The notes under the pieces: model-generated
Told to the model about the DNA's origin: nothing
The model's input: the letters and a program-made list of their open reading frames with translations, nothing else
Database searches by the model: none
Translations under genes and position numbers: made by a program
Shown here: positions 3,691 through 55,653 of the stretch, piece by piece
How the letters are laid out: every line of letters begins with the position of its first letter
Position numbering within the stretch: position 1 is the stretch's first letter
Assembly (NCBI RefSeq): GCF_029873635.1
Contig: NC_080423.1
Location: forward strand, 106,005,988 to 106,069,987
Direction of reading: 5' to 3'
From: Malania oleifera
Lineage: Eukaryota; Streptophyta; Magnoliopsida; Santalales; Ximeniaceae
DNA length: 64,000 nt

Positions 3691-3699
3691 TACTTATTG

Positions 3700-5290: not shown

Positions 5291-5299
5291 TCTATTGTC

Positions 5300-14045: not shown

Positions 14046-14268
14046 ATTTAACTAATTTAAGTTTGTTTTATTGCCATTAGAATATTTACCTAAAAAAATA
14101 ATAGAAAATGCACATTAAAGTTTTCATGTTATTATAGGGGGCCTAAAAAAGAAAGATTTTTCGTATCATCAATGACAACAAATAAGGAAAAAACTAATTA
14201 TAAAATGGAATAACAGTAAAAATATTAAGAATACAACAAGTGTCAATTTTTTGCAACTACTCCAACCC

Positions 14269-14276
14269 TATATAAA
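14269..14276 (+). promoter_or_regulatory. TATA box of peptide gene 1
   Basis: TATATAAA starting 66 bp before the ATG at 14335. The surrounding sequence, including ATGACAACAAATAAGG about 100 bp upstream, is conserved in all three peptide-gene copies. Confidence 0.75.
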
Positions 14277-14334
14277 CTTGCTCATACCTAAAATTTTCAT
14301 ATCAATTCATTTGTTGTCAAAAAATAAAAGCAAA

Positions 14335-14493
14335 ATGAGTTTCGACGCAACATTGAAGTTTTTCATCTCGATGGTCGATGGCTCCCTCCTCTTGAAGTAT
14401 TTCAAGACAAAAGATTTTTGTTTGAGAGGGCAGAAAGAAGAGTCTTTGCAGAAGAAGGTCCTTGTTCTTGACAGGTCAATGAAAAGCATTTGA
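14335..14493 (+). CDS. 52-residue conserved plant peptide, copy 1
   Basis: Single-exon ORF starting MSFDATLK. I do not recognise the family. The N-terminal half is fairly hydrophobic (MVDGSLLLKYF), the C-terminal half is charged and Lys-rich (KEESLQKKVLVL, then RSMK), with one Cys at residue 29. There is no clear cleavable signal peptide and net charge is positive. It starts at the first ATG after the TATA box; the longer reading frame upstream has no ATG. The stop is TGA at the codon where copies 2 and 3 have TAA and TAG. Against copy 3 I counted 11 synonymous and 11 amino-acid-changing codons, more silent change than drift would give. Followed on the other strand by the RING gene 3' end. 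Confidence 0.7.
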   Translation: MSFDATLKFFISMVDGSLLLKYFKTKDFCLRGQKEESLQKKVLVLDRSMKSI

Positions 14494-14499
14494 CTTGAG

Positions 14500-16100
14500 T
14501 AACAAACATGAATTTTGTAATAGTTTTATATATAAGTATATAGTTTTCAAAATTTATGTTGCTTTTTATTGTTTAATAAGAGCGATTATTCCAAACATTT
14601 AATAAAAATTGAATGATATGTAAGTGAGTTTTATGTTTTCTAAGGCATTTGTTTCTATATTATATGTCTTGACTATCAAAGCTGTTTTTGCTTATTTGTT
14701 GATTATCATCCAAATTTGAGATGAAAAAAATTGCAATACTAATTAGGGTTTTCATTGTCATAATTTTTTTATTGCGAAATACTTAATTTTCACCGCACAA
14801 TATTGTGTAATGTACAACATTTTTCAATGTTTTTTTTTTTAAACGAGGTTTGAGTTATTTGGATTATTATTTTAAAAATCTTAAATTCAATTCTTTTTCA
14901 CATCAAATACCGTGTCGCTAAGTATATTGAAAATAACTAATTAATGGGCTCTTGTGTTATATGTATATATGCATAGTAACGGAATAATTTCAAAAATAAA
15001 ATAAAATAAAAATAGAAAGACATTTAAATTTTATATTTAAGGGGAGAAAATACTGAAGAAAACAGTATATATTTCTCTTACACTGAAAATATCATCATCA
15101 CCAATACCATACTACGTTCTTATTTCTAGTTCCATTTCGCACAATACTGTTCTTACATTATATACATCAAACGTTTGGCTTAAAAAATTGTTTGAGGTGT
15201 AATCACGAGTTCAAGTTTTGTCTGTTAGATTTGAATTTGTATGTCGTATTTATCTAAATCTATTTAAATCTATAGTTAAGCACTCAAAATATTGATTAAT
15301 TAACTCACTCTTTCAGGAACGAAAAAGGAAAAATACACCACAGTTTTGTAGCGATATATATAAATCTAATTTAAAATTAAAACCAATCCACCCAGTAATG
15401 AACAATTTGAAAGTGGATTACTTCCTTAAACCATTTGGTGATGCATTAATCTTACACATTCATAATCTTAACGTTGAGGTAGAAGCACAAAACAACTTGG
15501 TTAATATTGTGGCAATGACCATTTGAAACCTAAATCAAATTAAGATCATAGAAAACCCAAGGGAGAAGGAAGAAAAAAAGTTCCAAGACCCACCTCTAAT
15601 GCCTACAACAAATTGAATGGAATCTCTTATGCATTCTTGAATGCAAAAGAAACTAAAAATATTTATAGCAAGCTTAGTGTTTGTTGAGAGTCTTCATCTT
15701 GAATCATGAGCTGTGCATAAACATGGCTTCTTAAATCATTGAGACTAATTTTTTGGCCAATACAAAAAAATCTAGATCAAAACTTGATTATCTAAAATGT
15801 AATTTTCCAATGCTTGCAAATTTTAAGTCTATTGAAATACTGCAATTAAATTATTGACACCCTAAATTCAAGAATTTGTAAAAGCAAGATTAACCCACCT
15901 TTTTCAGCATAAATACAGCCGTAAATCAATACATTTTAACCACAAGATAAAAAAATTTGGCGAACCATTAACACATTTAACTCTTCTTCTTTGGATCCAA
16001 ATCAAGTTTACACCAATAAGAAAGTACTGATAAGCGAAGAACTGAACGGTTCAAAAAGAAGAAAATAAAAACAAAGTATTATTAAATTTGCAAAGATTTG
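14500..16100. other. Convergent intergenic region, peptide gene 1 to RING 3' end
   Basis: No further gene seen. It should hold the 3' ends of both convergent genes. Up to about 15880 the sequence is closest to the first repeat of unit B (50600-52730), and from about 15907 to the second (57360 onward), a switch discussed under findings. Confidence 0.6.
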
Positions 16101-16101
16101 T

Positions 16102-16393
16102 TCAATTAGTCTCATTGGAGTCCTCTTCAAAGAAATACAAGTATGGAGCGAAGTGCTTGCGTTCATGGGATTCTCCTTCCTTATCCTCACTATTGATCTT
16201 GGGAGTTATCCAACCCAGCTGTTGCATATAAACTTCATCATAAGCTTCTATATTCAATCCTGAGGCAAGGAATAGTTCTATTTCATTGACAAACCGCTCT
16301 GCTCTTCCACTCAGAAAAGGCCTTGCAGCGTCTAAGACCAGAGACTCGAAGGTTTCTTGTTTTTCTTCAGGAGCACTTCTAAGTTGCTCATTT
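16102..16393 (-). CDS. RING gene exon 7 (C-terminal exon)
   Basis: Encodes residues 174-269 and the TGA stop. Acceptor TTATCCAG|A. Contains NEQLRSAPEEKQ, ARPFLSGRAERFVNEIELFL, NIEAYDEVYMQQLGW and an acidic end PYLYFFEEDSNETN. It is the only one of the three exon 7 copies in the window without a frameshift (others at 57568-57858 and 52930-53223). Confidence 0.8.
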
Positions 16394-19300
16394 CTGGATA
16401 ATTGAAGAGTGTAAATCCAATAGCAAAATAATTATAATGGAAAAATGATTCAGTGTTCGCAATATCCTTCACAATTTTTATTGATAGTTTTAATGCCAAA
16501 CTTTAGCATATAACACTATCCAGCAGAATTCAACAGACAATGATTTAAATTTTAATTCATTTTTTAAGGCATGTTATAATAGTAAAGATGCTTCAATTTT
16601 GGATGCATGTTAGAATGCAACTTATTACCTTCTCCTGAATGAGTCAATCACACCAAGTACATGATGCACAATGATGTCAACATCTTCCTCCTACATAGAA
16701 ATATTACGTCAACCATGTAGTTCCGTAACATGAAAGGGAAATCTTACCACATTCAGCTAAAACATGCAGGCATCCTAAAAATGGGTTTAAATTGATCAAA
16801 TATTTTGTAATTGGCAAAATCAGAAGGAAATCAAAAAATCTTGACTACAGGATCTTTATTTCTCCTAAGAAGCATTTTATGCAATTCATTAGAACACCAA
16901 GAGTTTGTGGTTAGGATGTTGAACGTGTAGGTCCAATCCCACCAGAGGAGGTACTGAAAGCCAACATCCCTTTTGTAAGCTTTCTAGTATGGTCCATCTG
17001 TTTTCCAAAGTGAAACCAAGGAAAAGAGTATTAGTTGAGGGTATATTATGGCTTGACACATACTAATTTGACTCCGTATGTGGTAGATGGAGGAAGTTCT
17101 AATGCCAAAAAAAAAGGCCCATATGCCGTTCTTGGATGAGTTCCAATAAGAACACAACATTATCCCATGCAAAGCTGGCTAATAGAAAAATGCACCTAGA
17201 GAAAAAGATGCACGCCTATGAGCAGATGTATTTGCTCTACTACTGGGCTCATTTCTGTTTCTGTAGGGGAGGTGAATTAATGCAAGGGGTGCAAGTATCA
17301 TTATATTTTTGTATGTGCAAGGGTCCATGTTAATTTGTCAAACCTCGTTTGTGTAGTTTGCTAAAGTTTCTTTCAGTTTACTAGTGACTTTGTCAATACC
17401 CTTTTGCCTTCTCCAGATTAAAATTTTTTTTTTTATTACTTGTAAAATTTTTATCAGTTTCATTTGTGATTTTTATTTACTTTTTCTTCTTACTTTAGTT
17501 GTTAGACAAATGGCCCATCCATTAAATATGATTTTATTTTCATTAAACACCATAAACTTCACATTTTTATTATTTTTTATTGGTTAATTCCCTTAAAAGC
17601 ATAAATTTCAAATTTTCATTAATTTTTTCTTCATTTCTCCCCTTATTTTTTTAAAGAAAGCATACACATGATTTTTTATTGTTATAAAGTTAATTTTTTA
17701 AAAAAATTTCTTGAATTCTTATACTATTTTTTCCAATATTTTAAAAGGCTAAGGCGTAAGGTGAGGCGTTTTAACCCTTACGAGGCAAGGTGTAAGCCTT
17801 GAGGAGTTGGGGGCAAAAGCCTTTTGAGAATTTGTTTTTTAGATAAAAATATGTTAAATAAATTATATATTTAAAATGAAGTAAAAATTAATAAAATCAC
17901 AAATATAATGTAAAAAATAAAAACTAGATGTACTATGCAAAAATACTAGTTGGCCATTCAAAAATTGCTAACTTGAATAGGTGACATAAATCATGACAAG
18001 AGATAGCGATACCATCAGAAAGTTCAAACTATTTTCATGATGTAAGATACAACTCTCAATTATTTTGAAAAGGTTGAGGTTCAGGAGTTTTAGAAATAAA
18101 CTCATATTATGACATTCATTTTATACAAACATGTAGTTAAAATTTTCTAACCAATTCTAACTTGAGAATCACACACCCTAAATGCGTAAACCTCAACTAA
18201 AAAGGCACAAAAAGCGTTTTTTTTTTTGTAAAAAATGCATAAGCCTCAGCATAAGATGCATTAGCCTTTTAGGAATTTGGTATTTTAGATTGAGCCTCAA
18301 GGCGTTTTAGACATACCTTGCCTTGAGGCGAGCCTTGATTGAGCCTTTTAAAACACTGATTTTTTTTACTATATCTTAGCTGCCCAGGAGAGCAAATCAG
18401 TTATTTTCCTCAGAAGCCCCTTTGGAAAACAGCAGGTCCTTTGAAGGTTGCTATTCACCTGGGAGGCTGCTCTAGGGAAGATCCTCACCCTTGACAACCT
18501 TCAAATAAAGAGCTTCTCTATCAAGAATAGGTGTTTTGTGTGCGAAGCGGAATTGGAGAACCACATCCTTATTCTTCGTTGCCCCTGGACCACGAATCTC
18601 TGGAACTTGATCATTTCCATGGTCAAACAGAAACAGATCACTGCAGCTTCAGGCGAGGGTAAAATTTGAACTTCTAAAGGGATCTGTTCCACAAGTTCAA
18701 AAGGAGAGCTCTTTCCCTTGTCCCCCTCCCTATTTTTTGGGTGACTTGGAAAGAAAGGAACAGAAGGGCTTTCGATGCAACAGTCCTTCTCTGCAGGCTG
18801 TCATGGAAAACTGGTTATGTATGATCTCTAAGCATAGTGAGGTGCTAGGGAGGGACTTCTGTTATTCTTGACTCCCTGGATGTACTTCAGTGACCGGTGC
18901 ATTGTTTTTGTTATTTGTTGTTTTTGCTGTACTTGAATGGCATCTTCTTGATGCCCTGTCTTTTTCAAATAATATTTCTTTGCTGATCTCCCCCCAAGAC
19001 CAAAAGAAAATCTCTCACAACTCTCTTGAAGTCTCAATATTCCTAGCTAATCCTACTAAGATTTTAAAAATAGACAAGTAAATAAACAGGGATACTAGAA
19101 AGACAAACTTGAATGAGAATGATGCAACCACCTAAAAGAAAATAAAGCACCCTTCGACCCATCCAAACACTTAGACAACTTCTCCACCACAAGATCCCAA
19201 GAACCCACAGACCAAGGATTAGCACCCAACGAACCCTGAATAAGTCAAGAGGTCAATCTATAATATCACATCCAGCTAAAGAAGCCAACTCCAAACATCT

Positions 19301-22300
19301 AGTATCACTTAAATTAATACCAGCAGTTCCACTCTTCCCCAAATCAACCTCTTAAACAAAACCTGCTCAAAAAAGGGTACTATTAAAAAAAGACTCCCCA
19401 TGATCTGGTAAGAAAAAAATAGTGTTCTCAGCAAATTGAAGATGAGATACCATAACCCCTTCAGTCCCCACCCTAATCTCTCTTATAAACCCTAGACATA
19501 ATCGCCCTTACTTTACTCTCTACAAAAAGCCAAGTTATCTGGGCTAGGAATATGGTTCAATTCCAAACCCTCAATCAAAGCCCAACAGATATCACCTTCG
19601 ATAAAATTATTAGCAAAAAAATGTGTAATCTCATTGGTGATCAAACAAGAATCAGAAGTAACCTGCCCTCCTCCCAACTACCCCCAGAAGTACCAATTCC
19701 CTAATCAAGTTCATTAAATCCTCCCTAATAATAAAAATCCATATTTAAAACATTCAGAACAGGAGCCTGGTCCCTCTCCCTCTCCATCCCTACACAACTG
19801 CCTCACTTCACTATCCTCAAAGGCCTCCCCAACCAAGTTACCTGGGCACAAAAAATAGGATTCCATTCCAAACCATCAAGGCATCAATCATAGGCCTACA
19901 AACATCCCTTCAACAAAAAGATTGGCAAAAAATTTTCTAGTCTCATCAGCAGTCAAACTAGAATCAGAAGCAACGCCCCCCCACGCCCCCCGGGCACGCG
20001 TGGCGAGTCCTTGGGCAGATTAACCAACCTATGAAAAATTTGGAATTGTAATCTCTCCCAACACATTTTAACCTTTTCTTTTGCCTCCCATTCCTCACTT
20101 CCCAAAAAATCAGTGCTTCTAACTCATTTTTGAAACACCTCCTCGTACTCCAAAAGCCTCCCTTTCTTTTACCTATCCAACATATCAAGCTCCCCTAGAA
20201 AGCTAGTCTTCTTAGCACTATTGACCCCAAACTTCAATATTCCACTACTTCAACACCTCTTTAAGACGTTTAAGCTTTTCATGAACCTAAACCTTCCTAA
20301 CCCCTCTCATAATGCTCAGTCCAAGAACTCGTAACCAACGATTAAGAAGACCAATGATAAAGCCACATGTTTTAAAACCCAAATAGAGTGGAAACATTTA
20401 ACCTTGCTGGACTTAACAAAAGGAAAACGTCTCACAACGGTCTTAACAATGCAACTTGAGAAGGATGGGAGATTTGTCTTCCCATTCACTATAAAACAAG
20501 AACCAAACCAACTAGCAATTGCTCTTGCTCCACCCACTAACCAAAGAATAAAGCATTATCCCTAAGAAAATCTCTCAAACCATACTCCCTGATAAACTTA
20601 TCAACATACTGCAAACCTAATGTAAATACAACCTCATATGAATCTGTGCGCTAAGCAAATAAAAGAATTTCACAAAAATCCCCAGAAATCGATCTATACC
20701 CTAAAATACCATATACAGCACAACAAGAAGATTCAGTTTCAGCACGACATTCATATGATCCCATATAAACTACGGGTCATGAGGTAACAAAAAACAATGA
20801 CACAAGAGAACAAAAACTAATGAACACAAGCACCTGAGTTAAAGCTTGGATTTCCCTTTCCAACCAATTGTGGAGCCACTGATTTTGTTGAAGATATTTA
20901 TGCGACGTCCAATACCGTGAGACATTGAATTTATCATTTAAGACACCTGATTCAACAGATAAATAACTGAAAAAGGTAGAGAAAACAGTTGGTTTGTCAA
21001 GAAACAACAAAGTAGAAAGCCAATAAGAAGAAAACCAACAAAGAATAAAACTGTAGAGCAGCATGATACCTGATTCAGTGTAGTAGCACTGCAATCTATA
21101 CCTTTGGGCTTTTGAAAGGGAAAAACTGTAGCTGCCATCAATGAGAAGTAAAATTGAACAGCATCTAATAAATATGCAGGGTAAATCAAGTAAAATAAAT
21201 TGACAGTTTACCATACTTATTTCCAATATCCTGGTTAACATAATGTCGTTGGAAAGAGCTTCCATCATACCCATGTATGATAGAAAAATTTTCTGTCTGC
21301 AAATTAGTCAAAATGATTAATCACTTAACTCACAAGGACAGAAGTGCTAAAGATGAATACTAAATTCCACTTAAAAGGAAAATTTACCAAAGCAAACTAA
21401 AAGTACAGTTCAAACATGATTCAGATAGAATCCAAAGGTACTTTGAAATGATGAATTTTCATAATAAGCATATGTATTTTAAAAATGCATCAACTGGCAA
21501 ACACATTACATGAAAAACATCAAACTAAAACCTTGTATCATTAGAATTTTAGCATTCCAGAACAAAAATGTATCACGTCTCAGAACAACTCAACCAGTAT
21601 GTGGTTTGCTAGGGCGTTGATGTTTTCTGGTAAATATAGCTCAGACCTCCAATACTCATCCTCATCCTCTTTTCATGCTGCATTGCATGCATTTTGAATC
21701 ATATATTAAGTGTGTTTTCTGTTGGACATTTTGCATAATGACTCAAATCTAAGTTTCCTAATATACATTTCATAAGGGTAGAAAATTTGGAACCAACCAC
21801 AAATTAGTCAAATTGATGCGAAATTTGTGCGTTCTCTCATTTAAATATGAAAATTATCGTGGTCATGAATAATTTTGCTTGTGAGCCAATCATTGTATGC
21901 CACTTTTATGTTTTACAGCACTCAATTACTGCCAAGTCGAGCACAAGCATTTAAAACTTAAAAAATGATCATGAAGGAGAATCAAACTATTGCCGTGTGA
22001 AAGGATTAAGCTCCTACCAGCATGCCAAGGCATTTCACTATGTTAATCATTAACACATTTTCCACGGCTGTCAAACTCCCGTTTTAAGGAATGTTGAGAA
22101 GTCAATTCTTATTTCAAGGAGTGTTTCAAGCACATGACGTCATTTTATGTCTTTATCCTTATAAATAAACAATTTTAAAAAGGATGCTTTTGAAATCAAA
22201 AGGCCGGGCAAAGTTTGGATTTCCTCTTTCTAATAGTATATGTGTGAAAGAGACAAAGAAGTGTTGCAATAATTTAAAATAATTAAATAATTATACATAA

Positions 22301-25300
22301 AAATATTATTATATGCATACTTTGGAGGCACCTTCAATCCCACAATCTTTTAAATCCAGCTGCTCCCACACACTCACTTTTGCTTAATAAATTAGTTACC
22401 TAGGTTGAGGGTTCTGAAGCAACATTGTAAACTTTTTAGAATAAGTCTAGTAAAAGCACAGAATTTTGATACAACCACATATTGAGATGCATGGCCACAC
22501 GGTGATTACTGTCACCTATTACCTACTATCGCACCAATCAACCCCATCCACCTTTGTCAATAGCTTCCAATATATGAATCCTAGAATCACCCGAATCCCC
22601 AATATCAAGAATAAGAATTCCTAAACACCACTTGACCCCAACTCAACACTAATCCAATACCCATCATTTTGATCTCAGCCATCTCCACCAAATCCCTCAA
22701 TCATGTCTCATTGAGCCCTAATCCCTACTTAAACCCTAAATCCCACACCTCAAAATCAAACCTAAGCACCATCAAGACTACAAGTCCACTGGACAGGTAT
22801 AGTTGTCCTGCCATGTTAAAGCTGCTGAAAATTCCCTCTTGTAAATGTACCCGTCACAAGGATCCTTTTGTCGTCTAACATAAATTGGAAAACTGACGCC
22901 CCTTGACATTCAGAAGCTCAAGCCCCATTCTGTAGTACATGATCTTTGCCGGTTGTTTTTCTTATCCGAAAAAAAGAAATATTATTAAGAAAGAAAAATG
23001 AAGAAGGAGAATATGGAATTGTCTAAGGGGGGGGGGGGGGGGAAGGATCACGATCGATACTAAACAACCAGCGAATCACGTTGAACATCCTCAAAACACA
23101 TTCCCTTGAAACAACCTGCAGCAACAGCCCATTCCAAATTTGGATCTTTTCCGAAACCAAAAATACATCATCTTTGCCAGTTGTTAATGAATGACATTCT
23201 GGGTCAATGCAACAAGGCCCAGAGGCCCCAGCCCTTCCTCCATCCCTTGTGTGCTAGTGCATCGCATCTTCAACCCAAAATTCATCTGGAAGACCTTATA
23301 ACCAGTCCATTTATTCACATATGAATCAATCCATCCAAACCTTTTTAACTTTTTTATTCCATTATTTTAACCCACTTCATAACAATCAAACCACCTAAGC
23401 CTAAATTACTCTTCGACCCATACCAACCTGCAGAGCATATTGCACATTATACCCTTCCTTTACGCAAGGATACAAACTTGCAAGGTTTGCAATTTCAACT
23501 TAAATTGCTATCACTGCCGGTGCCATCATTGCACTATCACCTTCACTAATGCAGCCATTACCATCATACGTAACCTACCATTGCACCAATCAACCCCATC
23601 TACCACTATCGATGGCTCCAATCTCCAAAATCCTCATATCTCCCAAATCCTCAGGAATCCCAAAATCCCAATTTGAACCCTACTCGACATCAATCCAATA
23701 CACATCACCTTGGTCTCAATCAATTGAATATTACTCCTAATCATCACCAAACTAATTCCTCAACCATGTTTGATGATGTAGGACAAACATCAGACAACTT
23801 GATTTTCCAAAAAAAAAAATTATAAACAAGGGCCTTATTATAGGCTTACGATGCTTGGAAACGAGGCAACTAATTTAAGATGCCAAAATAAATCAAAACA
23901 GTAGTTTCTTAGAAAAATGAAATGCTAGGAAACCTGAAAAACTAAAATAATAATTCCTTAAATGATAATACCATAGAATTTTGAAATAAAATGCCAGAAT
24001 TTGAAAAAAGAAAATAGAAACAAAATCCTCCATGTTGACTGCATCCTCTCCCAAGAACTCAATCTCCAGTTAAAACTGTGTGCAATAGACACACAAACTG
24101 AATATTCTAGTGCACTTACAATCTTATCATCAAAGGGGTTCTTACTATGCATAGGCTCAAGGCCCAAATCTTCAATATTCTACTATGGTAACATGAGACT
24201 TTCTACAAAAATTGTCATAAAATCCTTTCTACCCACGATTATGGCAGTCAACCCAAAAGCATTCAACCCGCTTAGAATTCAGGTGGCTAGGGAGGGGCAG
24301 GAGGTGGTTCATGTTGAATGGACAGTCTTACAAGTGTCCTTCCAATACTTATCTTTTTCTCAGCATTCCTAGCAAAGGCAGCAGCTTGATCTGTGGAATT
24401 CATAGGATTCTAGCTCAATGCATCAAAATCAATGCATCAAAAGATTTTAATGCAGGAGCCAATGTCCAGTATCTTAATTCTCAAACCCAATCTGCCTAAA
24501 ACCTAATACATAAGGGCCTTTTATAAGCTTGAAGGGAAAGGCAACTAAACTGAAACCTAATTAAATCAAAATATAAGTTTCTTAAATAAAAATAATAATG
24601 ACTTAAGAGTCTTGAAGATATTCCTAACAACAATATCATAAACAAAAACAAGAAATAAAAATAAAATCCTCCATAAGCTGGCTACATCAACCGCATCATG
24701 CAAGACCAAACATTCAACAACTTCATTCTCAATTCCAATCTCCCTAAAACCTAATAAGAGCAGGCATTTTGTAGGCTTACAATGCTTGAAAGGAAAGGTA
24801 ACTGAATTAAAACCTAATTAAATCAAAATAATAGTTTCATAAATAAGAAAATGACCTAGAATCTTGGAGATATAACCCTAATAGCAATATCATAAATAAA
24901 TAGAATCCTCCATATGCCAGCTGCTTCCCCTTTCATAGGAATCCAAGGAAAAAGAATTAATATTGGGATGATATTTGCAAGAAGATAATAGCTTTAACTA
25001 AGCAAGCCCATGCCCCTACCGAGCCCTCCGATCTAAATGTGTTAGCATTTTGATGTACACAAGGAGGGGTCAGACCATGCCATAGGTGGTGTGCCAGCAC
25101 AATAAGGTAATCCAATCCCATACGAAAGCTGAGAGCTCAATGAGACAAAGGCACAGTCCAATAGAAGGATATGACAACAACGGAGCACTACTTGAGAATG
25201 CACAGGCAAATCAACGGTTGTGGTGAAACCCAAAAAAAATGTGGCAACAATTGACCTCCTAACCGGTAAAAAACACATGCCAAAAGAGGACAAAGAGTAG

Positions 25301-38658: not shown

Positions 38659-38721
<63 letters not shown>

Positions 38722-41391: not shown

Positions 41392-41934
41392 CGTTGCCCT
41401 CATCGAGTCTCGCATTTGTCTTGTAATGACCCAAATATATATATATATATATATAAAATAATAAAAAATAATAAAAATGATCATTAAATTAATATCAATA
41501 CAAATGTGCTTTTCTGTAGAATCCTTGATTTTATGTTTGATACCTAAAAAAGACATTGTCTCAGCGAGTGCTCAAAGACCATTGTGACTCAGTTGCTCCT
41601 TGGAGATCGGCCTGGTCAAAATGGAATTTCATAGGATAAACAGAGTAGATAATGTTTGTACACGTAAATAAATACATATATATAAAATAATGTTTTGACT
41701 GACATAATAATAATAATAATAATAATAATAATTATATAAGTATCCTATGCGGGGCCCACATTACTATGTGGGGCCCACACGAGTCATGAAATCATGTGGG
41801 ATCCACAAGAATTTCGAAGTTGTGTAAAGCTCATAAGACCGTGTGAGTACTATTGGAGTTACGTATGACTCACTTGGGTCTCAAAGTTGTATGGGGTCCA
41901 CATGAGTTTTTAAAATTCAAACTTAATTCGTTTT

Positions 41935-41974
<40 letters not shown>

Positions 41975-43480
41975 TAAAACATAATTTACAAATAATAATA
42001 ATAATAATAATAATGATTTTAAAATTAATTAATTAATTAAATGGGAGTGTCGGCAAGCACTCCCATTTTCCTACATGTACCTCATCCTCATCTCATACCT
42101 CCCAACCCAAGCTCATCTCATGCTCATTTCTTACCTATTCAATTTTTAAAAAAAAAATTATAATTTCATCTCTCTCTGCACACTTTTACAAATTCTTTTT
42201 TTTTTTTTTCAAAATTTTCCTATAAATAGGAAGCTCTCAATCTTCATTTTTTACAAAAAATTTTCAAATGAAAAGAAGAATTAGTGAGTAAAAGAATTAG
42301 TGGTGGAGGAAGATTTTTTGTGATCGTATCATAAGGTTGAGTAAAAGGTAATTAAATTTGATTATGTTAAATTTTTATTTAAAATTTATACCTGAATTTA
42401 TTTGTAAGTAAATTTTGATTATATCAGTTATTTTCATAAAATTCTCCCGAATTTATTTTTACGCATATTTAATTATATCAATTTTATCTTTAATATACTT
42501 GTATTTTTTTTTTAGTGAAAAAATGTTCTAAATCCCTCGAGTATTTTACAGTATTAATTTCTATTGAAAAAAATATTTTTAGTATGAAAATTGTGTGACA
42601 TGAGTTTATTTATATGTGCATATTTCATGAAAATATGAGTAAAGATAACATGAGTTGATTTTTACGTTACGTATTTCACGAAAATATGAATAAAAATGAT
42701 ATTTTCATGAAATTATTTTAATTATATAAATTATATAATAAGATGTTTTCAAAACCCCTTATGATTCAGACAATACAGAAAATTACAAATGTTCGGTGCC
42801 ATAACTTAAAGATTAAACGGATCAGAGTGCACTCATATAATTTACAGAGTGGTTATATATGGCAGTGGATTTATCCTAAGTGCACACCTGGTTCTGGGTT
42901 AGGATTTAATAGGAAAAATCTCACTTAATAATGATATGCGTTGATTTAGTTTGACCGGTCAATAAGTTAAGTCCAGTCTTTGGACCGCACAACCCAGTTA
43001 TAGGGATAAACATGACTCACGATTAATAGAAACATGACTTACGACTAACAAAAATATGACTTACGACTAACAGGTCTGAGGGTGATTTTTACAGTATATG
43101 TATATGCATATTTAATTACGTGTATAAAGTTATTAATGATTTGAAGGAAAAATATATGTTTATGTGAACATGATGATTTTTGTGCCTAAATGATGATCTA
43201 AAGGAAACGTGTAAGAAAAAGTATATATATATATAATTAAATATTATAGTTACAATTTTAAAGTTAAAATTTTAATTTAACAATTAAAGTATATGATTAT
43301 AAAATTTTACTGCTGTAGTTGATGGTAAAAGTGTTATGTAAATTTTTTTAAATTCACATATATTTTAAAAGCAGTTTTGAAGTTATAAAATTTAATATTA
43401 TTTTACGAAAGTATAATATTATGAAAGCTCATTTTGTCACACACTAATAATAATCTTATTTACTTACTGAGCGTTGTTTC

Positions 43481-45812
43481 TGTAACAACCCGAATTTAGA
43501 ATGATATTTAAATAAAAAAGAGAGGGAAATAGAGACCGGAAACAGAAGGAGGCCTTCGACTTCGTTGACGACATTGAACTTTGGAAGGAAACACGGAAAA
43601 AGGGGATCAGCAAGACTTCGTCGACGAAGGCTTAAAAGAATTCATCGACGAACATAGGGGGCTTATCGACGAGAAAATACCGAGAGGGGTTTTTGAGCCG
43701 ACTGAATTTCATCGACAAGGAGTGTATTTCGTTGACAAAATTTGTAAAGGACTCGTCGACGAAGGATGGGCTCGTCGACGAAATTCCATATTCTATAAAT
43801 ATGGGAAATCCGAATTTTAACTTCCTAATTAAGCTATCTTCATCCTCTCTCTCTCTTTCCCCCCTTCGGTTCTCCCTCTTTCTTTCGTCAATTTCGGGCC
43901 AAATCTTCGCCGGATCGACAATCCAAAGTCACCACGACGCTCCTGGGGAAGTTCTCTCCAAATCTGCCGGAGCGAATCGTTGGTGAAAGTTAGTTGGAAA
44001 TCATCCCAGAGTTGAGGTAAGACTTTTTAAGCCATATCTGGTCTTACGCTAGTTATAAGAAATGTTGTGCGCATGAAAATACTAAAATTTAATACTGGGG
44101 GTTTTCAATTTCAGGGTATTGGTCAGGAAATCCCTCAGGAGACTTGAATACTTTTGGATAAAAACTTTCTACTCAATATTTGGGTTTTTGACAGTTGAGG
44201 AAAGTATTATATGCTTAGAAATACTGAACTTTAATACTGGAAATTTTCATTTTTAGGGTGTTGAGTTGGGAATCATGCGGGTGCGGGGAAGATTTTCTTA
44301 GGGGCTTTGTAGGAATCAGGTAAGGGGATCAACTAAGCTAGTACTTTTTGAAAAATGTTTGAATATTATTATAGAACTCGAATTTCAGGGAAATGAATAT
44401 ATATATTTATATATGATTTATATTTGGGAAAATTCTGTTAAAATGACAGTATGTTGAATATGTGAAAATTTGTTAGTGTGACATGAGTATAGAATGCTAT
44501 GAAATACTGGTTCTGGAATTGTGTTTATGATATGAATTTTTATAATGAGAAAATCGGCGTACGGGCCAATATTTTTATATGTTATATGTTTGCTGGCGTA
44601 CGGGTCGTGCTATGATGTGATTTGCTAGTGTACGGGCTGTGCTATGATGTGGTTTGCTGGCGTACGGGCCGTGCTATGATGTGATTTTCCAGCATACGGG
44701 CTGTGCTATGATGTGATTTGCCAGCGTACGGGCTGTGCTATGATGTGGTTTGTCGGCGTATGGGCCATGCTATGATTAAATGTGTAATACTGGCGTACGA
44801 GCCAATGATTTTCATGATATACGTATATATGCGAAATGATATGATTAATGTGAAAATTTATAATATGAGATATCCATGTATTACGGTTTTAGTATATATT
44901 ATATGATATCAGAACCTGGTTGACTTGGTCTAGGCTAGCACTTGCACGGTACCGCTGCTTTATGTCCATGGTTTTCGTGATCATGATATCTGTGTTAACG
45001 CCGCTATACGAAGTGGTGTGAGATTGGATGGTCGATGTGGTTATTTTCAAGAAGTGTGCTGTTATCGCCCCTAGTGTACGGACCAGGTTTGGCAGACCCA
45101 TTGGACCTACAGACTACTGTTTGACTTCGCAATGGTTGACCAACCATTGTCAGGTCCTGCATTCGGGCCGTACAACCCAGTCATGTGGGGGTAATACATG
45201 ACAACAACTAGTTAACCTACCATGATTGTTTTTATGTTATTATTATGATATGAGATGAGATATGCTTATGAAATGCAGTATGTTCTGCCATATTTTGATA
45301 TACATATGTTTTCCCATATTTGATCAATAGAACTGAATATGTTATATATGATATATATAGAACACAGAATACTCATGTTGTCACACGCTAGTATTAGTTT
45401 ATTTCCCTTACCGAGAGGTGTCTCACCCCTAAATCTTATAAGCTTTTCAGGAGCCCCTGATAGAAGAGCGGGAAAAGCTCCGCTGACCTAGTGTTGGATA
45501 TCTGCCCTTTTTAAGGGTAAGTTTCTTTTGTAGGGATAGTCAGATTTTGTGGGAAATGTCCCTAGATTTATTTTGGGATGTAAATATGGAAATACTGTGG
45601 ACTATAGTAACTCTGATATATTGTAATATATGGTATTGAGATGTACATTATTGTATGTTTTCTGCTGCTAGGACTTCTGCTGTATGTTCTGATATATTCC
45701 TGGTACCCACGGGTCTAGGTGAATTGTGACTTGCTGAACTGAAATATGAGAAATGTGCTACTGATATTATCAAAAAAAAAAAAATTTGTGGAAAAATGAG
45801 CAGGTCGTGATA
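43481..45812 (+). mobile_element. Solo LTR (TCGTCGACGA family), unit B only, with minisatellite
   Basis: 2332 bp starting TGTAACAACCCG and ending GGTCGTGATA, a decayed form of ...TTACA. Target duplication GTTTC at 43476-43480 and 45813-45817; unit A has the empty site at about 11564. Array of TCGTCGACGA-like sites at 43560-43785, TATAAAT at 43794-43800, CT-rich leader, donor-like GAG|GTAAGA at 44017, and CTTACCGAGAGGTGTCTCACCCC followed by CTTTTCAG (45408-45450). Open frames 43581-43986 merely read through the array and leader. Confidence 0.87.
44592..44783 (+). repeat. 32-bp minisatellite, six units
   Basis: Six contiguous 32-bp units starting at 44592, 44624, 44656, 44688, 44720 and 44752. 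Consensus starts GCTGGCGTACGGGCCGTGC and ends TATGATGTGATTT. Single degenerate half-units flank it (about 44552 and 44789). Inside the solo LTR 43481-45812; not seen in the related LTR of unit A. Confidence 0.92.
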
Positions 45813-46793
45813 GTTTCACCTCAATCGTTATTTTACATTTCAGATAATTTTGAAGAGTATACTAAAAATCTGGCGTAGCAAGTGCATGAGTGGGAGTTGA
45901 AAGAACATAGTAGAATAAAAATTTAACATAATACAATTTAGAATATGTTTGTATATTTTTGAATTTTAGAAAATTTCATTTTAATAGTTGAAACATATAT
46001 TTGTAATAAAGCTAATTAGTGCTCTGGTAATAAAAATAATTTAAATTTATGTGCGCCTGCTGAAAAATTTATATGCTGGAATCCACTTGGGTTCGAGTCC
46101 TTACATGTCCTCATCGCCCTCATCTAGTATTGCTCGTGATAATTGATATCTAGTTTTTCCTTTAAAAAAATAATAATAAGTTTGAAGATCTCACTCATAT
46201 TCTTTCAAGATTTACTTGAAGAAATAAAAACTGGACAAGATTTTAGCTAGTCAAATATGAGTTTTTGAAGAGCCAAAATAAGATATAAATATAATCATGT
46301 TCACAAATTTTTTATAGAAATATTTTGCCAAAACAACTCAAATAGAAGCCATTTTTTTAAAATGCAATTATTAATCATACGCACATAAAATCTTCATAAG
46401 CTTCGAATTGACAGAGTTAAGCATATGCTTATTTTTTACTTAAATCCTAATTATTTTATAAGTAAAAATAATTATGGATTCTTAGATAAATTTCAGACGA
46501 ATAATTTAAGGGTTTCATTTGTAAATAAATTTTGACATCTAATTGATATGCAACATGAGATGAATTACTTCTTATTATATATGTAGCTCAAATCGCGTGT
46601 GATCTTCTAATAGACTAAAACAAACTTTCATTATAAAATGCATCTTCAAATAATATTAACTAATTAGTATTTTTTGTATTATGAAATTATTTGTTTTGCT
46701 TCTAAATATAAGGGTGGGTTTAGCCGTGGAAGATGCTTTTTATTTTTTATTTTTTCAAAAATTATAAAATTAGCATTTTTTTTTTTTAGCTTT

Positions 46794-47645
46794 TTGAGAT
46801 TCTATTAAAAAGTTAGAAAATGAAGAATTTGTTTAAATGTGAAAAAAAAATTCCATTTTGTATTTCTAGATTTTAAAATAAATACAGAAAGACAACTTGT
46901 TTTTTCAATTTTCTAAAAGATTATTGAAGGTAATAGCTTAAGTCATAGATTTTGGGACTTGAATTTTAGATTTGTGTGTATTTAGAAGAACCTTTATGCA
47001 TAATCCAAACATATTGAAGTATAATATCTGAATTCCATGCTTCCATACACAAAATAAGAGTTAGAAATTTAGAAAAATAATGAAAAGTTATTTCCCAACT
47101 TTTATATGTAAATTAATAAAATTGAAAATAAGGCAGTATTTTTTTGTTTTCATTTAAAAAATTAGAAATGATAAATTAAACTATTTTTTCAAGAAAATGG
47201 TCGAAATTTTGTTTATCATTGTTCATTTATTTCATATAAATGTTAAAAAATGAAAATTAGTTGATTTTTTTTTTTTACTTTTTTGGAAAACTAAAATGAA
47301 AAATGAAAATTATTTTCTACAACCAAACAGGTCCTTAGAAAGTGTCTATAATTATTTTCTATAATAATATTATTTGATGTTCAATAGTAAGCAAACTTCA
47401 TAAATAATTTCAACTAAAAAATCTTATTACACCTTAAATGTAATTTTTTAATAAATTAAGTGAATAATATTTTTAAAAATAAAAGATGTTTTTACACTGA
47501 AAGTTAAAAATTGTGGATCTAAATTAGGTAAAAAGAGGTATAAGGTGGAAGATGAGCTAACTCTTGTTGTGCAATTCGTACTCAATGCAAACTTTCAATT
47601 GACCAAAAAAAAAATAAAATTCAATTGTCTTAATTAATAAAATTT

Positions 47646-47676
<31 letters not shown>

Positions 47677-48999
47677 TTTGTGTTTAAATTAATATGAACA
47701 CATTGCACATGCTTCATCGCTAGCGCTAATAATAAAAAAGGTCACCATAGTACATTATGAAGACCCAAATGGTAAAATGTTAATAAAATATTTATTAAAA
47801 TTACCTTCTCAATTAGTATTTTAGGTTTCTCATTAAGTATTTTGAAATTATGGTTTTCCTATACATTTCAACTTAATTAGTTCATTTAATAGAATTTCCT
47901 TTTAATTATATTTCTATTTTTAAATTTTTTCTTGAAAAGTTAGTATTGAAAATATTGAGTTAGTTTCAGGAAAATAATTACTTTTTAATCATGCTCTCCT
48001 AAATTGTTTAAAAGTTCTTTTGATAGGAAATTGCATTTTTCACGCTCTCATAAATTTTTTTTATGTTGTGTGAAATTTTCGAGATAAAATATTCTTAAAA
48101 ATGTTTTGAATTGACTCTAAATGTGTACCCATATTCTATCTAGCATATTCTGAATATTATTAGATGATAAAAATACAAATTATCAAATTATCATTTGAGA
48201 TTCTATTAAAAATTTAGAAAATAAAGAATTTGTTTAAATGTGAAAAAAAAAATCCATTTTGTATTTCTAAATTTTAAAATAAATACAGAAAGACAACTTG
48301 TTTTTCCAATTTTCTAAAAGATTTTGAGACTTGAATTTTAGATTTGTGTGTATTTAGAAGAAACTTTATGCATAATCCAAACATATTGAAGTATAATCTC
48401 TGAATTCCATGGTTCCATACACAATATAAGAGTTAGAAATTTAGAAAAATAATGAAAAGTTATTTCCCAACTTCTATATGTAAATTAATAAAATTGAAAA
48501 TAAGGTAGTATTTTTTGTTTTCATTTAAAAAATTAGAAATGATAAATTAAACTATTTTCACAAGAAAATGGTGGAAATTTTATTTATCATTGTTCATTTA
48601 TTTGTTAAAAATGAAAATTAGTTGATTTTTTTTTTTACTTTTTTGGAAAACTAAAATGAAAAATGAAAACTATTTTCTACAACCATACAGGTCCTTAGAA
48701 AGTGTCTATAATTATTTTCTATAATAATATTATTTGATGTTCAATAGTAAGCAAACTTCATAAATAATTTCAACTAAAAAATCTTATTACACCTTAAATG
48801 TAATTTTTTAATAAATTAAGTGAATAATATTTTTAAAAATAAAAGATGTTTTTACACTGAAAGTTAAAAATTGTGGATCTAAATTAGGTAAAAAGAGGTA
48901 TAAGGTGGAAGATGAGCTAACTCTTGTTGTGCAATTCGTACTCAATGCAAACTTTCAATTGACCAAAAAAAAAAAAATTCAATTGTCTTAATTAATAAA

Positions 49000-49042
<43 letters not shown>

Positions 49043-49510
49043 TGTGTTTAAATTAATATGAACACATTGCACATGCTTCATCACTAGCGCTAATAATAAA
49101 AAAGGTCACCATAGTACATTATGAAGACCCAAATGGTAAAATGTTAATAAAATATTTATTAAAATTACCATCTCAATTAGTATTTTAGGTATCTCATTAA
49201 GTATTTGAAATTATGGGTTTCCTACACATTTCAACTTAATTAGTTCATTTAATAGAATTTCCTTTTAATTATGTTTCTATTTTTTAATTTTTTCTTGAAA
49301 AGTTAGTATTGAAAATATTGAGTTAGTTCTAGGAAAATAATTACTTTTTAATCATGTTCTCCTAAATTGTTTGAAAGTTCTTTTGATATGAAATTGCATT
49401 TTTCACGCTCTCATAATTTTTTTTATGTTGTGTGAAATTTTCGAGATAAAATATCCTTGAAAATGTTTTGAATTGACTCTAAATATTATTAGACGATAAA
49501 AATACAAATT
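46794..49510 (+). repeat. 1.4-kb tandem duplication, unit B
   Basis: Copy 1 about 46794-48194 and copy 2 about 48195-49510, both starting TTGAGATTCTATTAAAAA. Shared landmarks include CGCTAATAATAAAAAAGG (about 47722 and 49088) and a (TTA)n tract (47646-47677, longer at 49002-49041). Unit A has a single, internally deleted version (12530-13440). Confidence 0.85.
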
Positions 49511-50364
49511 ATCAAAATATTTTAATATGAATAGTCGTAAAAAGTGTGACGAGCATTAAATTTAGGTTTTTTTTTTTTAAGAATGTATTTCCCAACTATA
49601 GAAATTTATTAACTAAGAAACTCAATAATTTAAATATATTGATACCTCGCTTTTGAGGTAAAATATTCTTGCAAATGTTTTGGATATACTTCAAATGTAT
49701 CCACATATTTTATCTAACATATTATGAATATTATTATATAAAAATTTACAAAGTATCAAAATTTAATTTGAATATGAATAGTCTCAAAAAGTGTGACGAG
49801 CATTTAGTTTAGGTGTTTTTCTTGACGAACACATTTCCCAAATATAGAAATTTATTAACTAAGAAACCCAATAATTTAAATATATTGATATGATGCATGA
49901 AATTTTTTGAGATAAAATCTCATTGAAAATGTTTTGAATATACTCCAAGCGTACCCTCATATTTTTTTCTAAATATTATTACATAATAAATCACAAAACA
50001 TCAAAATTGAATTTTAATATGAATAGTCTTAAAAAGTGTGATAAGCATTTAATTTAGGTATTTTTCTTGACGAACACATTTTCTTACTATAGAAATTTAT
50101 TAATTAAGAAATTTAATAATTTAAATGCATTGATAACATTTAACTAATATAAGTTTGTTTTATTGCCATTAGAATATTTACCTAAAAAAAAAATAGAGAA
50201 TGCACATTAAAGTTTTCATGTTATTATATTATAGGGGGCCTAAAAAAGAAAGATTTTTCATATCATCAATGACAACAAATAAGGAAAAAACTAATTATAG
50301 AATGGATAACAGTAAAAATATTTAGAATACTACAAGTGTCAATTTTTTGCAACTACTCCAACCC

Positions 50365-50372
50365 TATATAAA
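50365..50372 (+). promoter_or_regulatory. TATA box of peptide gene 2
   Basis: TATATAAA starting 66 bp before the ATG at 50431, as in copy 1. Confidence 0.75.
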
Positions 50373-50430
50373 CTTGCTCAGACCTAAAATTTTCATATCA
50401 ATTCATTTGTTCTCAGAAAATAAAAGCAAA

Positions 50431-50589
50431 ATGAGTTTCGACGCAACATTGAAGTTTTTCATCTCGATGGTCGATGGCTCCCTCCTCTTGAAGTATTTCA
50501 AGACAAAAGATTTTTGTTTGAGAGGGCAGAAAGAAGAGTCTTTGCAAAAGAAGGTCCTTGTTCTTGGCAGATCAATGAAAAATACTTAA
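50431..50589 (+). CDS. 52-residue conserved plant peptide, copy 2
   Basis: Nearly identical to copy 1 (14335): amino-acid changes only at D46G, S51N and I52T, plus silent changes. Stop is TAA at the same codon. TATA box, leader and about 130 bp of upstream sequence are conserved. Downstream on the minus strand lies the RING 3' fragment 52930-53515. Function unknown. Confidence 0.7.
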   Translation: MSFDATLKFFISMVDGSLLLKYFKTKDFCLRGQKEESLQKKVLVLGRSMKNT

Positions 50590-52222
50590 GTTGAGTAACA
50601 AACAGTTAATTTTGTATTAGTTCTATAATTAAGTATATAGTTTTCAAAATTTTATGTTGCTTTTTATTGTTTAATAAGTGTGATTATTCAAAACATTTGA
50701 TAAAAATTGAATGATATGTAAGTGAGTTTTATGTTTTCTAAGGCATTTGTTTCTATATTATATCTCTGGACTATCAAAGCTGTTTTTGCTTATTTGTTGA
50801 TTATTATCCAAATTTGAGATGAAAAAAATTGCAATACTAATTAGGGTTTTCATTGTCATAATTTTTTTATTTCGAAAGACTTAATTTTCACCGCACAATA
50901 TTCTGTAATGTACAACATTTTTCACTGTTTTTTTTTTTTTTAAAATGAGGTTTGAGTTATTTGGATTATTATTTTAAAAATCTTAAATTCAATTCTTTGT
51001 CACATCAAATTCCGTGTCGCTAAGTATATTGAAAATAACTAATTAATGGGCTCTTGTGTTGTATGTTTGTATGCATAGTAACGGAATAATTTCAAAAATA
51101 AAATAAAATAAAAATAGAAAGACATTTAAATTTTATATTTAAGGGGAGAAAATACCAAAGAAAACAATATATATTGCTTTTACACAGAAAATATCATCAT
51201 CACCAATACCATACTGCGTTCTTATTTCTAGTTCCATTTCCCACAGTACTGTTCTTACATTATATATATATATCAAACGTTTGGCTTAAAAAATTGTTTG
51301 AGATGTAATTAGGAGTTCAAGTTTTGTCTAGTAGATTTGAATATGTATGTCGTATTTATCTAAATCTATATAAATCTATATTTAAGCACTCGAATACTAG
51401 GAAATATTGTGTGTGGGAGTAGTGGTTTCAAGTTTTCAATTTCAATAGATTCAAGGGAAATTTAGTATAGCTGCATATTACACTTTATTTAAGTATATAC
51501 ATTTATGACCCAAATTGAAATATGAATAAAATTGAATTAATTAAAAGTAAAAACTTTACGTGTTTAGTTTGATTAGCGAAGTGAACTTTTCGGTGCTGAA
51601 ATATTGTGTAATATACAATATTTTTTACATCATGTTTACTTTGTGGCATAAAATGGGAGAATGAAATAAAATTTTGAATGAAATGTATGATAAAATCAAG
51701 TGATAGGAATGCTTTCTTTTAACATATGGTTCAAAATTTTTGAATGAACAGTTCTAACACTTTAAATTTGATTATTTGTCACATGAACACGTGTCGCTTA
51801 GTATCCTGAAAATAATTAATTAATGAGCTCGTAATATATTTATGTATGTATGTAAGTACACATAAAATAATAGGATAATTTTTTTTAAAAAAAAAAGAAA
51901 AAAAAAAACACAATATACATTTCTCATACAAAGGAAATATCATCATCACCAACCTGTGCTCTTACGGAAAATATGCATTATAATTCATATATCACAATCC
52001 GAAATATTGATTAATTAACTCACTCTATCTTTCTGGAACGAAAAAGGAAAAACACACCACAGTTTTGTAGCGATATATGTAAATGTAATTTAAAATTAAA
52101 ACCAATCCACTCAGTAATGATCAATTTGAAAGTGGATTACTTCCTTAAACCATTTGGTGATGCATTAATCTTACACATTCATAATCTTAACGTTGAGGTA
52201 GAAGCACAAAACTACTTGGTTA

Positions 52223-52387
52223 ATATTGTGGCAACGACCATTTGAAACCTAAATCAAATTACGATGGTAGAAAACCCATATTGTGGCAATGACCATTTTA
52301 AACCTAAATCAAATTAAGATGGTAGAAAACCCATATTGTGGCAATGACCATTTGAAACCTAAATCAAATTAAGATGGAAGAAAACCC
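52223..52387 (+). repeat. 55-bp tandem triplication, unit B
   Basis: Three contiguous 55-bp units starting ATATTGTGGCAA at 52223, 52278 and 52333. Unit A has one copy (about 15503). The three copies differ at a few bases. Confidence 0.93.
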
Positions 52388-52929
52388 AAGGGAGAAGGAA
52401 GAAAAAAAGTTCCAAGACCCACCTCTAATGCCTACAACAAATTGAATGGAATCTCTTATGCATTCTTGAATGCAAAAGAAACTAAAAATATTTATAGCAA
52501 GCTTAGTGTTTGTTAAGAGTCCTCATCTTGAACCATTAGCTGTGCATAAACATGGCTTCTTAAATCATTGACACAAAATTTTTGGCCAATACAAAAAAAT
52601 CTAGATCAAAACTTGATTATCTAAAATGTAATCTTCCAATGCTTGCAAATTTTAAGTCCTATTGAAATACTACAATTAAATTATTGACACCCTAAATTCA
52701 AGAATTTGTAAAAGCAAGATTAACCCACCTTTTTCAGAATCAATGCAGCCGTATATCAAAACATTTTAACCATAAATTCAAAATTTTGGCAAACCATTAA
52801 CACATTTTACGCTTCTCCTTTGGAACCAAATCAAGTTTATACCAATGAGAAAGCACTGATACGCAAAGTACTGAAAAGTTCACAAAGAAGAAAATAAAAC
52901 AAAGCATTACTAAATTCACGAAGAATTGT

Positions 52930-53515
52930 TCAATCAGTCTCATCGAAGTCGTCATCAAAGAAATACAAGTACGGAGCAAAAGGCTTGCCTTCATGGGATT
53001 CTCCTTGCGCAGCCTCACTATTGATCTTGGGAGTAGTTATCCAACCCAGCTGTTGCATATAAACTTCATCATAGGCTTCTATATTCAAGCCTGAGCAAGA
53101 AATAGTTCTATTTCATTCACAAACCCCTCTGCTCTTCCAGTCTGAAAAGGCCTTGCAACATCTAAGACCAAAGACTTGAAGGCTTCTTGTTTTGCTTCAG
53201 GCACACTTCTAAGTTGCTCATTTCTGGATAATTGAAGGTTAGTGTAAACACAGTATGCAAAATCATTATAATGGAAAAATGACACTGTATTCACAATATC
53301 CTTCACAATTCGTATTGATAGTTTTAATGCCAAACTTTAGCGTGTAACTTATAAGCCAGCAGAATTAAAAGTCAGTTAACAATTTAAATTTTATTCCATT
53401 TTGGATGGCAAGTTATTATAGTAAAGATGCATCAATATTGGATGCATGTTAGAATGCTAATTATTATTTTTTCCTGAATGAGTCAATTACGCCAAGAACA
53501 TGATGCCAACATCTT
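52930..53515 (-). pseudogene. RING gene 3'-end fragment (exons 6-7), broken
   Basis: Exon 7 homologue at 53223-52930 reads NEQLRSVPEAKQEAF..., VARPFQTGRAEGFVNEIELFLA, then a 1-bp deletion (GCCTCAGG reduced to GCTCAGG) brings a stop two codons later. A 3-bp insertion lies further on. The exon 6 remnant (about 53515-53470) has lost about 16 bp including its acceptor, and its donor. No exons 1-5 accompany it. It came from the local peptide-plus-RING-end duplication in unit B. Confidence 0.85.
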
Positions 53516-54069
53516 ACATAGAAATATTGCATCAACCATGTAGTTCTGTAAGATGAAAGGGAAAACTTACACACATTCAGCAAAAACATGCGGTCATCCT
53601 GATAATGGGTTTAAATTGATCAAATATTTCGTAAATGGGCAAAATCAGAAAGAAATCTAAAAAATATTGACTACAGGATCTTTGTTTCTTCTAAGAAGCA
53701 TGTTATGGATTTCATTAGAACACCATGATTTTGTGGTAGGATGTTGAACGTGGAGGTCCAATCCCACCAGACGACATACTAAAAGCCAACATCCCTTTCG
53801 TAAGCTTTCTAATATGGTCCATCTGTTTCCCAGAGTGAAATCTAGGAAATGAGTATTTGTGGAGCAGCATGATGCAGCTGTAACTGTGGTGCTGTTGTTG
53901 GCAATTATTTACGAGCAAAATAAGTTATCCAACCGTGAGATTTGCCAAAACAATGCAGACCTCCTCGCATTTGAAAAATGACTCTACTCTTGGATGAGTT
54001 CCAATAAGAACACAACGTTATCCCATGCAAAGCTGGCCAATTGAAAATGCAACTAGAGAAAAAGATGCA

Positions 54070-55490
54070 CAAAATTTATCAAAATAAAATTTTAGACAAA
54101 CTAAATTTGAATATTTTATTTTATTCAAAATTTATCAAAATAAATGATAAAAAGATGCTCTAGCATATTCTGAATATTATTAGATGATAAAAATACAAAT
54201 TATCAAAATAAAATTTTAATATGAATAGTCGTAAAAAGTGTGACAAGCATTAAATTTAGGTATTTATTTTTAAGAACACTTTTCCCAACTATAGAAATTT
54301 ATTAACTAAGAAACTCAATAATTTAAATATATTGATACGTCGCTTTTGAGGTAAAATATTCTAGCAAATATTTTGGATATACTTCAAATGTATCCACATA
54401 TTTTATCTAACATATTATGAATATTATTATATGATAATTTACAAAATATCAAAATTTAATTTGAATATGAATAGTCTTAAAAAGTGTGATGAGCATTTAA
54501 TTTAGGTATTTTTCTTGACGAACACATTTTCTTACTATAGAAATTTATTAACTAAGAAATTTAATAATTTAAATGCATTGATAAAATATGACTTTTTGTT
54601 GGAAAAGCCAAGCATGTGCTCATTTTTTCAAAAATCTAAATCTTAATTTCTTTGGGCCCCGTTTGAAGCTTGGAAAATATAAGGAAAAGGAAAGGAAAGG
54701 AAATGAGAATATAAAGGAATCTAATTTCTCATGTTATCAAAGAAATAAAAAAAAATGTCAAATCAATGAACAAAAATTTGATTTTTATGTTTAATTTTCC
54801 TTAATTTTTAATTATATCAAAACAAATTTGTATTTTTAGTAGAATTTGATATAAAGAGAAAAATATAATGGAAAGTGAGTTTCCTTCTTAATTTCCTTTC
54901 TCCACCAAAATGCTTAATCCAAACAAATCTTAATTAAGTGAAAATGAATATGACGTTTTTTGTAAGTACCCTCATACTTTATCTAATATATTATGAACAT
55001 TATTAGACGATAAAATTACAAATTATCAAAATTGAATTTTAGTATGAATAGTCTTCAAAAGTACGGCCAACTATTAACTTAGGTGTTTTTCTTAACAACA
55101 CAAATTTTTTGAACCAATGGATAGTCTTTAAAAGTGTGATGAGCATTTAATTTAGGTGTTTTTTTTATGGACACATTTTCTTATTATAGAAATTTATTAA
55201 CTAAGAAATTCAGTAATTTAAATGTATTGATAACATTTAACTAATATAAGTTTGTTTTATTGCTAATAAAAGAAAATATACATTAAAATTTTCATGTCAT
55301 TATAGAGAGCCTCAAAAAGAAAGATTTGTTGCATCATCAATGACAACAAATAAGGAAAAAGGCTAATTATAGAGTGGAATAATGGTAAAAATATTAAGAT
55401 TTTAAAATTTTGCAGCTATTCCAATCCTATAAAAACTTGCTTGTGCCTAAAGTCTTTCATGCCATTTTAGCTGTTTTCGAAAGATAAAGG
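54070..55490. repeat. Restart of the peptide-gene repeat block, unit B
   Basis: From about 54157 the sequence returns to that of 13400 and 48160 (CTAGCATATTCTGAATATTA), running again through the 235-bp repeats and the peptide promoter. It is interrupted at about 54590-54990 by unmatched AT-rich sequence. The junction at 54068-54156 repeats AAAATTTATCAAAATAAA twice. Confidence 0.7.
55428..55434 (+). promoter_or_regulatory. TATA box of peptide gene 3
   Basis: TATAAAA starting 67 bp before the ATG at 55495. The flanking promoter, including ATGACAACAAATAAGG, is kept although the surroundings are much diverged. Confidence 0.7.
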
Positions 55491-55494
55491 TAAA

Positions 55495-55653
55495 ATGAGT
55501 TTCGACGCAACATTCAAAATTCTCATGTCAATGGTGGATGGTTCTCTTCTTTTGAAGTATTTCAAGAGGAAAGATTTTTGCTTGGGAGGACAGAAGGAAG
55601 AATCTTTTCAGAAGAAGGTCATTGTTCTTGGCAGGTCAATGAAAGACACTTAG
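55495..55653 (+). CDS. 52-residue conserved plant peptide, copy 3 (most diverged)
   Basis: Starts MSFDATFKILMSMVDGSLLLKYF and ends RSMKDT, with TAG at the same stop codon as copies 1 and 2. Changes are mostly conservative: L/F, F/I and I/M in the N-terminal part, T25R, R31G, L38F, L43I. There are no indels over 159 bp, although the flanking non-coding DNA has many. A recombination history separates it from copies 1 and 2, yet length, start, stop and Cys29 are kept. Function unknown. Confidence 0.72.
   Translation: MSFDATFKILMSMVDGSLLLKYFKRKDFCLGGQKEESFQKKVIVLGRSMKDT

Follow-up and report, generated by a model that had tools for sequence, protein, structure and literature searches.

Relation to described small-protein families

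Several kinds of small plant protein are known that resemble the element considered here, a 52-codon open reading frame (ORF) that occurs three times in a 64,000-nucleotide stretch of the Malania oleifera genome (NC_080423.1, positions 106,005,988 to 106,069,987; hereafter the window). Lineage-specific families of short plant ORFs are similarly made up of genes with one short ORF and a promoter of their own, duplicate in clusters and lack a known domain; the present family differs from them in having at least 218 loci and a tail that is frame-switched between its subfamilies. PROPEP and prosystemin are likewise small plant precursors that show no obvious signal peptide, but the better conserved part of the protein described here is N-terminal. 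NCR and other cysteine-rich peptides form very large clustered families with a conserved front and a variable back, as in this case, and NCR-type peptides carry four or more conserved cysteines, whereas our family has a single one (C29) and no signal-peptide-like run. The DVL/ROT-FOUR-LIKE proteins are also small and free of a signal peptide, although no DVL match was obtained in Pfam among 26 family members at E values up to 1.

The comparisons set out below indicate that the three window ORFs are probably protein-coding genes of a large expanded family, located behind conserved TATA promoters. For the N-terminal core of the encoded product, a translated protein under selection is very probable.

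The three window ORFs

All three ORFs lie on the forward strand and encode 52 amino acids, copy 1 at 14335-14493 (stop TGA), copy 2 at 50431-50589 (TAA) and the diverged copy 3 at 55495-55653 (TAG); translation reproduced the lengths and stops given by the first-pass annotation of this DNA. Their TATA elements (14269-14277, 50365-50373 and 55428-55436, all +) begin 66, 66 and 67 bp before the ATG, in agreement with the 66 or 67 bp reported earlier. Copies 1 and 2 are tandem-duplicate partners within one long tandem duplication (pieces D10-D20, which share 95-98% identity and are offset by 30 to 41.6 kb) and are therefore not independent, amounting to nearly one observation; they differ by 2 synonymous and 3 replacement codons. 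For the pair of copies 1 and 3 our recount gave exactly the 11 synonymous and 11 replacement codons first noticed, with nonsynonymous and synonymous divergence (dN and dS; method of Nei and Gojobori, NG86) of 0.10 and 0.58. The ORFs had also been described as free of insertions and deletions amid indel-rich flanks, and this is what we found: gap events upstream, within and downstream of the ORF (300-bp flanks) number 3, 0 and 3 for copies 1 and 2, and 5, 0 and 6 for copies 1 and 3. By nucleotide identity alone, the ORF is not distinguishable from its upstream flank in copies 1 and 3 (upstream 0.844, ORF 0.836, downstream 0.505), and its length by itself is unremarkable, as the window holds 90 ATG ORFs of at least 52 amino acids on its two strands.

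Purifying selection in the first subfamily

We assembled 42 copies from the genome matches, the window's three ORFs and one member of a second subfamily (L039), setting aside two duplicates (L001 and L002) and a short fragment. An ATG followed by exactly 52 codons is retained in 32 of these copies. For the 31 intact first-subfamily copies, without L039, a codon model gave a dN/dS ratio (omega) of 0.500 with a log-likelihood (lnL) of -1683.29, against at best -1698.53 with omega fixed at 1 over six values of the transition/transversion parameter kappa, so that twice the difference is about 30; for the codon-model fit IQ-TREE warned that parameters outnumber sites. Adding L039 changed omega to 0.479 (lnL -1846.67 versus -1863.84 at omega 1). 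Pairwise differences fall at codon positions 1, 2 and 3 in proportions of 27%, 22% and 52%. The NG86 ratio of sums, again without L039, is 0.27 overall (464 of 465 pairs usable), 0.18 for codons 2-31 (458 of 465) and 0.38 for codons 32-52 (453 of 465).

The integrity of the frame is consistent with these ratios. Among 38 copies, four partial or divergent ones having been dropped, 31 frames are intact, compared with a mean of 5.4 and a maximum of 18 in 300 neutral simulations on the ORF's own tree, which modelled substitutions only and used a kappa of 3 in place of the fitted 6.5. Across 120 pairs sampled with L039 left out, gap events number 422 in the upstream 200 bp, 3 in the ORF and 356 in the downstream 150 bp; with L039 in the sampling pool the corresponding counts are 422, 9 and 355. 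The 32 intact copies stop at a common position with different codons (20 TAG, 9 TAA and 3 TGA), and the +2, -1 and -3 frames over the ORF are open in none of them. The earlier proposal of a small-protein gene under purifying selection is thus supported, with omega at 0.50, 31 of 38 frames intact and 3 gap events inside the ORF compared with 778 in its flanks.

A second subfamily with a frame-switched tail

Of 20 fetched relatives of L039, 13 have a frame of 50-52 codons, six have frames of other lengths and one lacks an ATG at the corresponding place. The core of this second subfamily (14 copies, including L039) gave an omega of 0.248, with an lnL of -351.62 versus at best -359.92 at omega 1, and the 31-codon core of all 45 copies gave 0.408 (-1184.53 versus at best -1201.37). 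Across subfamilies the NG86 ratio of the core is 0.108, with 375 of 434 pairs usable. Two outcomes that the first-pass annotation had named as counting against a real gene, a dN/dS near 1 over more copies and frameshifts in most homologues, were not seen: omega is 0.50, 0.41 and 0.25 in the three data sets, and 32 of 42 plus 13 of 20 examined copies are frame-intact. In these alignments the first ~30 residues, with the consensus MSFxATLKFFxSMVDGSLLLKYFxxKDFCL, are the part held by selection across the members read.

The tails differ between the two subfamilies, in part through a change in the frame in which homologous DNA is read. Tail DNA remains alignable between them (nine copies each), and past about codon 38 the second-subfamily sequences are longer by 14 or 11 bases, such that one homologous stretch encodes VLVLGRS in the first subfamily and SLFLAN followed by a stop in the second. 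The last 12 codons of the second-subfamily tail have an NG86 ratio of 0.35 in their own frame (14 copies, 91 pairs). A clean frame-switch account is weakened by one of the two other frames over this tail, which is stop-free in 14 of 14 copies. The string GRS, common to the tails of both subfamilies, was considered as homology and ruled out, since the DNA alignment shows a frame switch. The core is also present in L080 (47 residues) and L081 (60 residues), with tails of other kinds.

These members may belong to a superfamily of intracellular plant micro-proteins that is hundreds strong and undescribed, a reading we regard as plausible, in which a selected core of ~30 residues is joined to a C-terminal tail. 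A length change of 11 or 14 bp would have recoded this tail by shifting the frame of one subfamily, both tails then being kept. The frame-switched tail would provide a natural test of which half of the micro-protein matters, and the core motif could serve as a query for transcriptomes, ribosome-profiling (Ribo-seq) data and peptidomes.

Family size and database searches

The ORFs had been introduced as a three-copy family; the family stands and the number three does not, and that first account mentioned neither the clusters nor the frame-switched tail. Protein searches of the 1.494-Gb genome (510 contigs) from three members, each scoring the best 150 of 214-221 candidates, together gave at least 218 distinct places, those added by the second and third searches being chosen by eye. 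This number is a lower bound on loci and not on working genes, most places being known as match rows only. In one protein search, 130 of 150 aligned stretches contain no stop, many of them spanning only the core. Chaining places no more than 300 kb apart yields 72 groups, of which 20 hold at least three places (159 loci) and 45 are singletons. The places are spread across C1 to C13 and four further contigs. DNA searches, each with the best 40 candidates scored, gave at least 41 matches for the window ORF and at least 41 for the divergent L039, 38 of the latter being new relative to the first. The reversed peptide, as a control in the same protein search at E values up to 10, returned 0 matches from 2 candidates where the forward peptide returned 150, an empty answer that alone proves little. 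A search of plasmids with the family peptide by tblastn returned nothing acceptable.

Two loci show rearrangements of their own. L023 (C13:81117717-81120094) carries three head-to-tail ORF copies ~220 bp apart, with starts near 781, 1001 and 1219, none of which has exactly an ATG and 52 codons. In L009 (C7:105961005-105963629, match start 1001) the first ten codons are swapped for unrelated sequence and the matched remainder is 97% identical in DNA.

In Pfam, two window peptides matched 0 families at E values up to 10, and 26 members gave no acceptable match at E values up to 1, apart from a single stray DUF6235 in one member (0.016). The same members gave nothing acceptable in NCBIfam, with one stray match at 0.056; the PDB searched by sequence held no acceptable match, the window had none in Rfam at the gathering threshold, and the family peptide strings were not found in open-licence literature, where topical searches likewise listed no paper with the family in its title or the opening of its abstract. 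Within Pfam, NCBIfam, the PDB and that literature, no family was found for the peptide, and the first-pass annotation had likewise recognised none. A family of at least 218 tiny loci, with a protein core under selection and no acceptable Pfam or NCBIfam match, suggests that minimum-length filters can keep one of a plant genome's larger gene families out of sight.

Promoter, flanks and dispersal

The TATA element lies 61-69 bp before the ATG in 29 of 32 intact first-subfamily copies and 86-96 bp before it in 16 of 19 copies of the second subfamily. Conservation extends further upstream: parts of the ~1.4 kb preceding copy 1 (12958-14334, +) have counterparts at 10 of the 11 other places fetched, both in translated comparison and as DNA. 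About three direct repeats of ~230 bp lie in this part of the window (13320-13565, 13568-13800 and 13799-14034), and the longest ATG ORF of the upstream region has 45 codons, its longest open stretch 53. A search with 541 bp of the region gave 71 matches, and by eye all except C4:113.449 Mb fall within ~1.5 kb of an ORF match. On the other side, similarity drops soon past the stop (short 3' flank of copy 1, 14494-14640, +), with 10 of 11 places matching in translated comparison at 14500-14599, 6 at 14600-14699 and at most 3 in later bins to 17200.

Dispersed copies at C8:30.04, C13:53.25 and C5:13.40 Mb have blocks of ~2.7-3.2 kb in common with the C8 or C4 cluster. These blocks end at unlike distances from the ORF, and a search for common ends among the three saw none. 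One dispersed copy, L057 (C13:53249001-53259000, about 3509-6767), is flanked at both edges by the 11-bp repeat GCAGATATTTT and lies in what we take to be a putative Ty1-copia remnant. It looks like a case of capture or of break repair with a filler copy, the edge repeat being read as copia flank plus filler.

A model for the family and its alternatives

The sequences show a proximal promoter with its TATA element, followed by a 52-codon frame under purifying selection and a freely changing 3' flank. Gene number rose within clusters, and some copies moved as blocks of genomic DNA that included the promoter. We propose that each gene gives a short unspliced mRNA and, from it, a small protein of the cell interior. 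There is probably no classical signal peptide or membrane helix, because no uncharged run in the consensus exceeds 6 residues (a rough test). The activity would reside in the first ~30 residues, which probably form two short helices on either side of the VDGS turn and contact a single conserved partner, and the tail, variable between subfamilies and once recoded by the frame switch, may tune partner choice or stability. We put forward only tentatively the idea of a non-secreted protein that acts by binding through its core. A link to stress or defence, drawn from the growth of the clusters and the many broken copies, is a guess.

Several observations weigh against this model. An AlphaFold2 prediction from 32 members is mostly helical but weak (mean predicted local distance difference test score 66, predicted template-modelling score 0.27), a fold search of the PDB with it gave no match, and the first helix has a low hydrophobic moment. 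The proximal promoter is nearly as similar among copies as the ORF, with a mean identity of 0.775 versus 0.81, and two alternative frames across the ORF are also open, +3 in 14 and -2 in 12 of the 32 copies. Ten of the 42 fetched copies are broken or differ in length, as do 7 of 20 in the second subfamily, and numerous loci may be pseudogenes. Moreover, copies were recruited by similarity to an intact ORF, which biases the sample toward intact ones.

Among other explanations, a precursor from which a signalling peptide is released, as with PROPEP and systemin, would fit the size, the large clustered family and the presence of a variable part beside a conserved one, and such precursors also lack a signal peptide. 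Their kept part is the C-terminal active peptide, however, whereas here the N-terminal part is kept more (0.18 versus 0.38 in the NG86 comparison above) and the tail is frame-switched between subfamilies, so that we consider this unlikely. Spread of the gene as cargo of a mobile element is less likely again: the blocks of the three dispersed copies do recur in other clusters and the copy at C13:53.25 Mb seemingly lies inside a Ty1-copia remnant, but the blocks differ in their end distance from the ORF with no common ends seen, and 159 of the 218 loci sit in groups of at least three.

The remaining two explanations question the protein itself. The first-pass annotation had named, as a third outcome against its reading, an ORF that is only part of a longer spliced gene. 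If the ORF were the opening coding exon of such a gene, with an AG|GT donor near codon 47 and the stop within the intron that follows, the AGGT that 20 of 32 intact copies carry at codons 45-50 would be accounted for. This string is missing there in the other 12 and occurs from base 121 on in 0 of 13 second-subfamily ORFs, and the stop keeps its position while its codon varies; nor does any bin from 14700 to 17200 match more than 3 of 11 places, although this comparison could overlook an exon that is poorly conserved or lies further away. We consider a spliced gene improbable. A non-coding RNA gene or regulatory repeat with an incidental ORF is the least probable of the four, being very doubtful even though parts of the upstream ~1.4 kb with its repeats are conserved without an ATG ORF longer than 45 codons in copy 1 and the proximal part is nearly as similar among copies as the ORF. 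It is opposed by the codon-position pattern, by omega well below 1 in two subfamilies, by the near absence of indels from the ORF alone and by the empty Rfam result for the window. A family of short protein-coding genes remains our preferred explanation.

Other features of the window

The long tandem duplication makes up much of the window (1-64000). Open frames of 176 and 174 codons, at 20777-21307 (-) and 62347-62871 (-), are retained in both duplicates, and the 176-codon frame had no match in Pfam. Ten other window ORFs were compared with Pfam, and their sole match was Exo_endo_phos, in a LINE-like endonuclease ORF at 1206-1895 (+).

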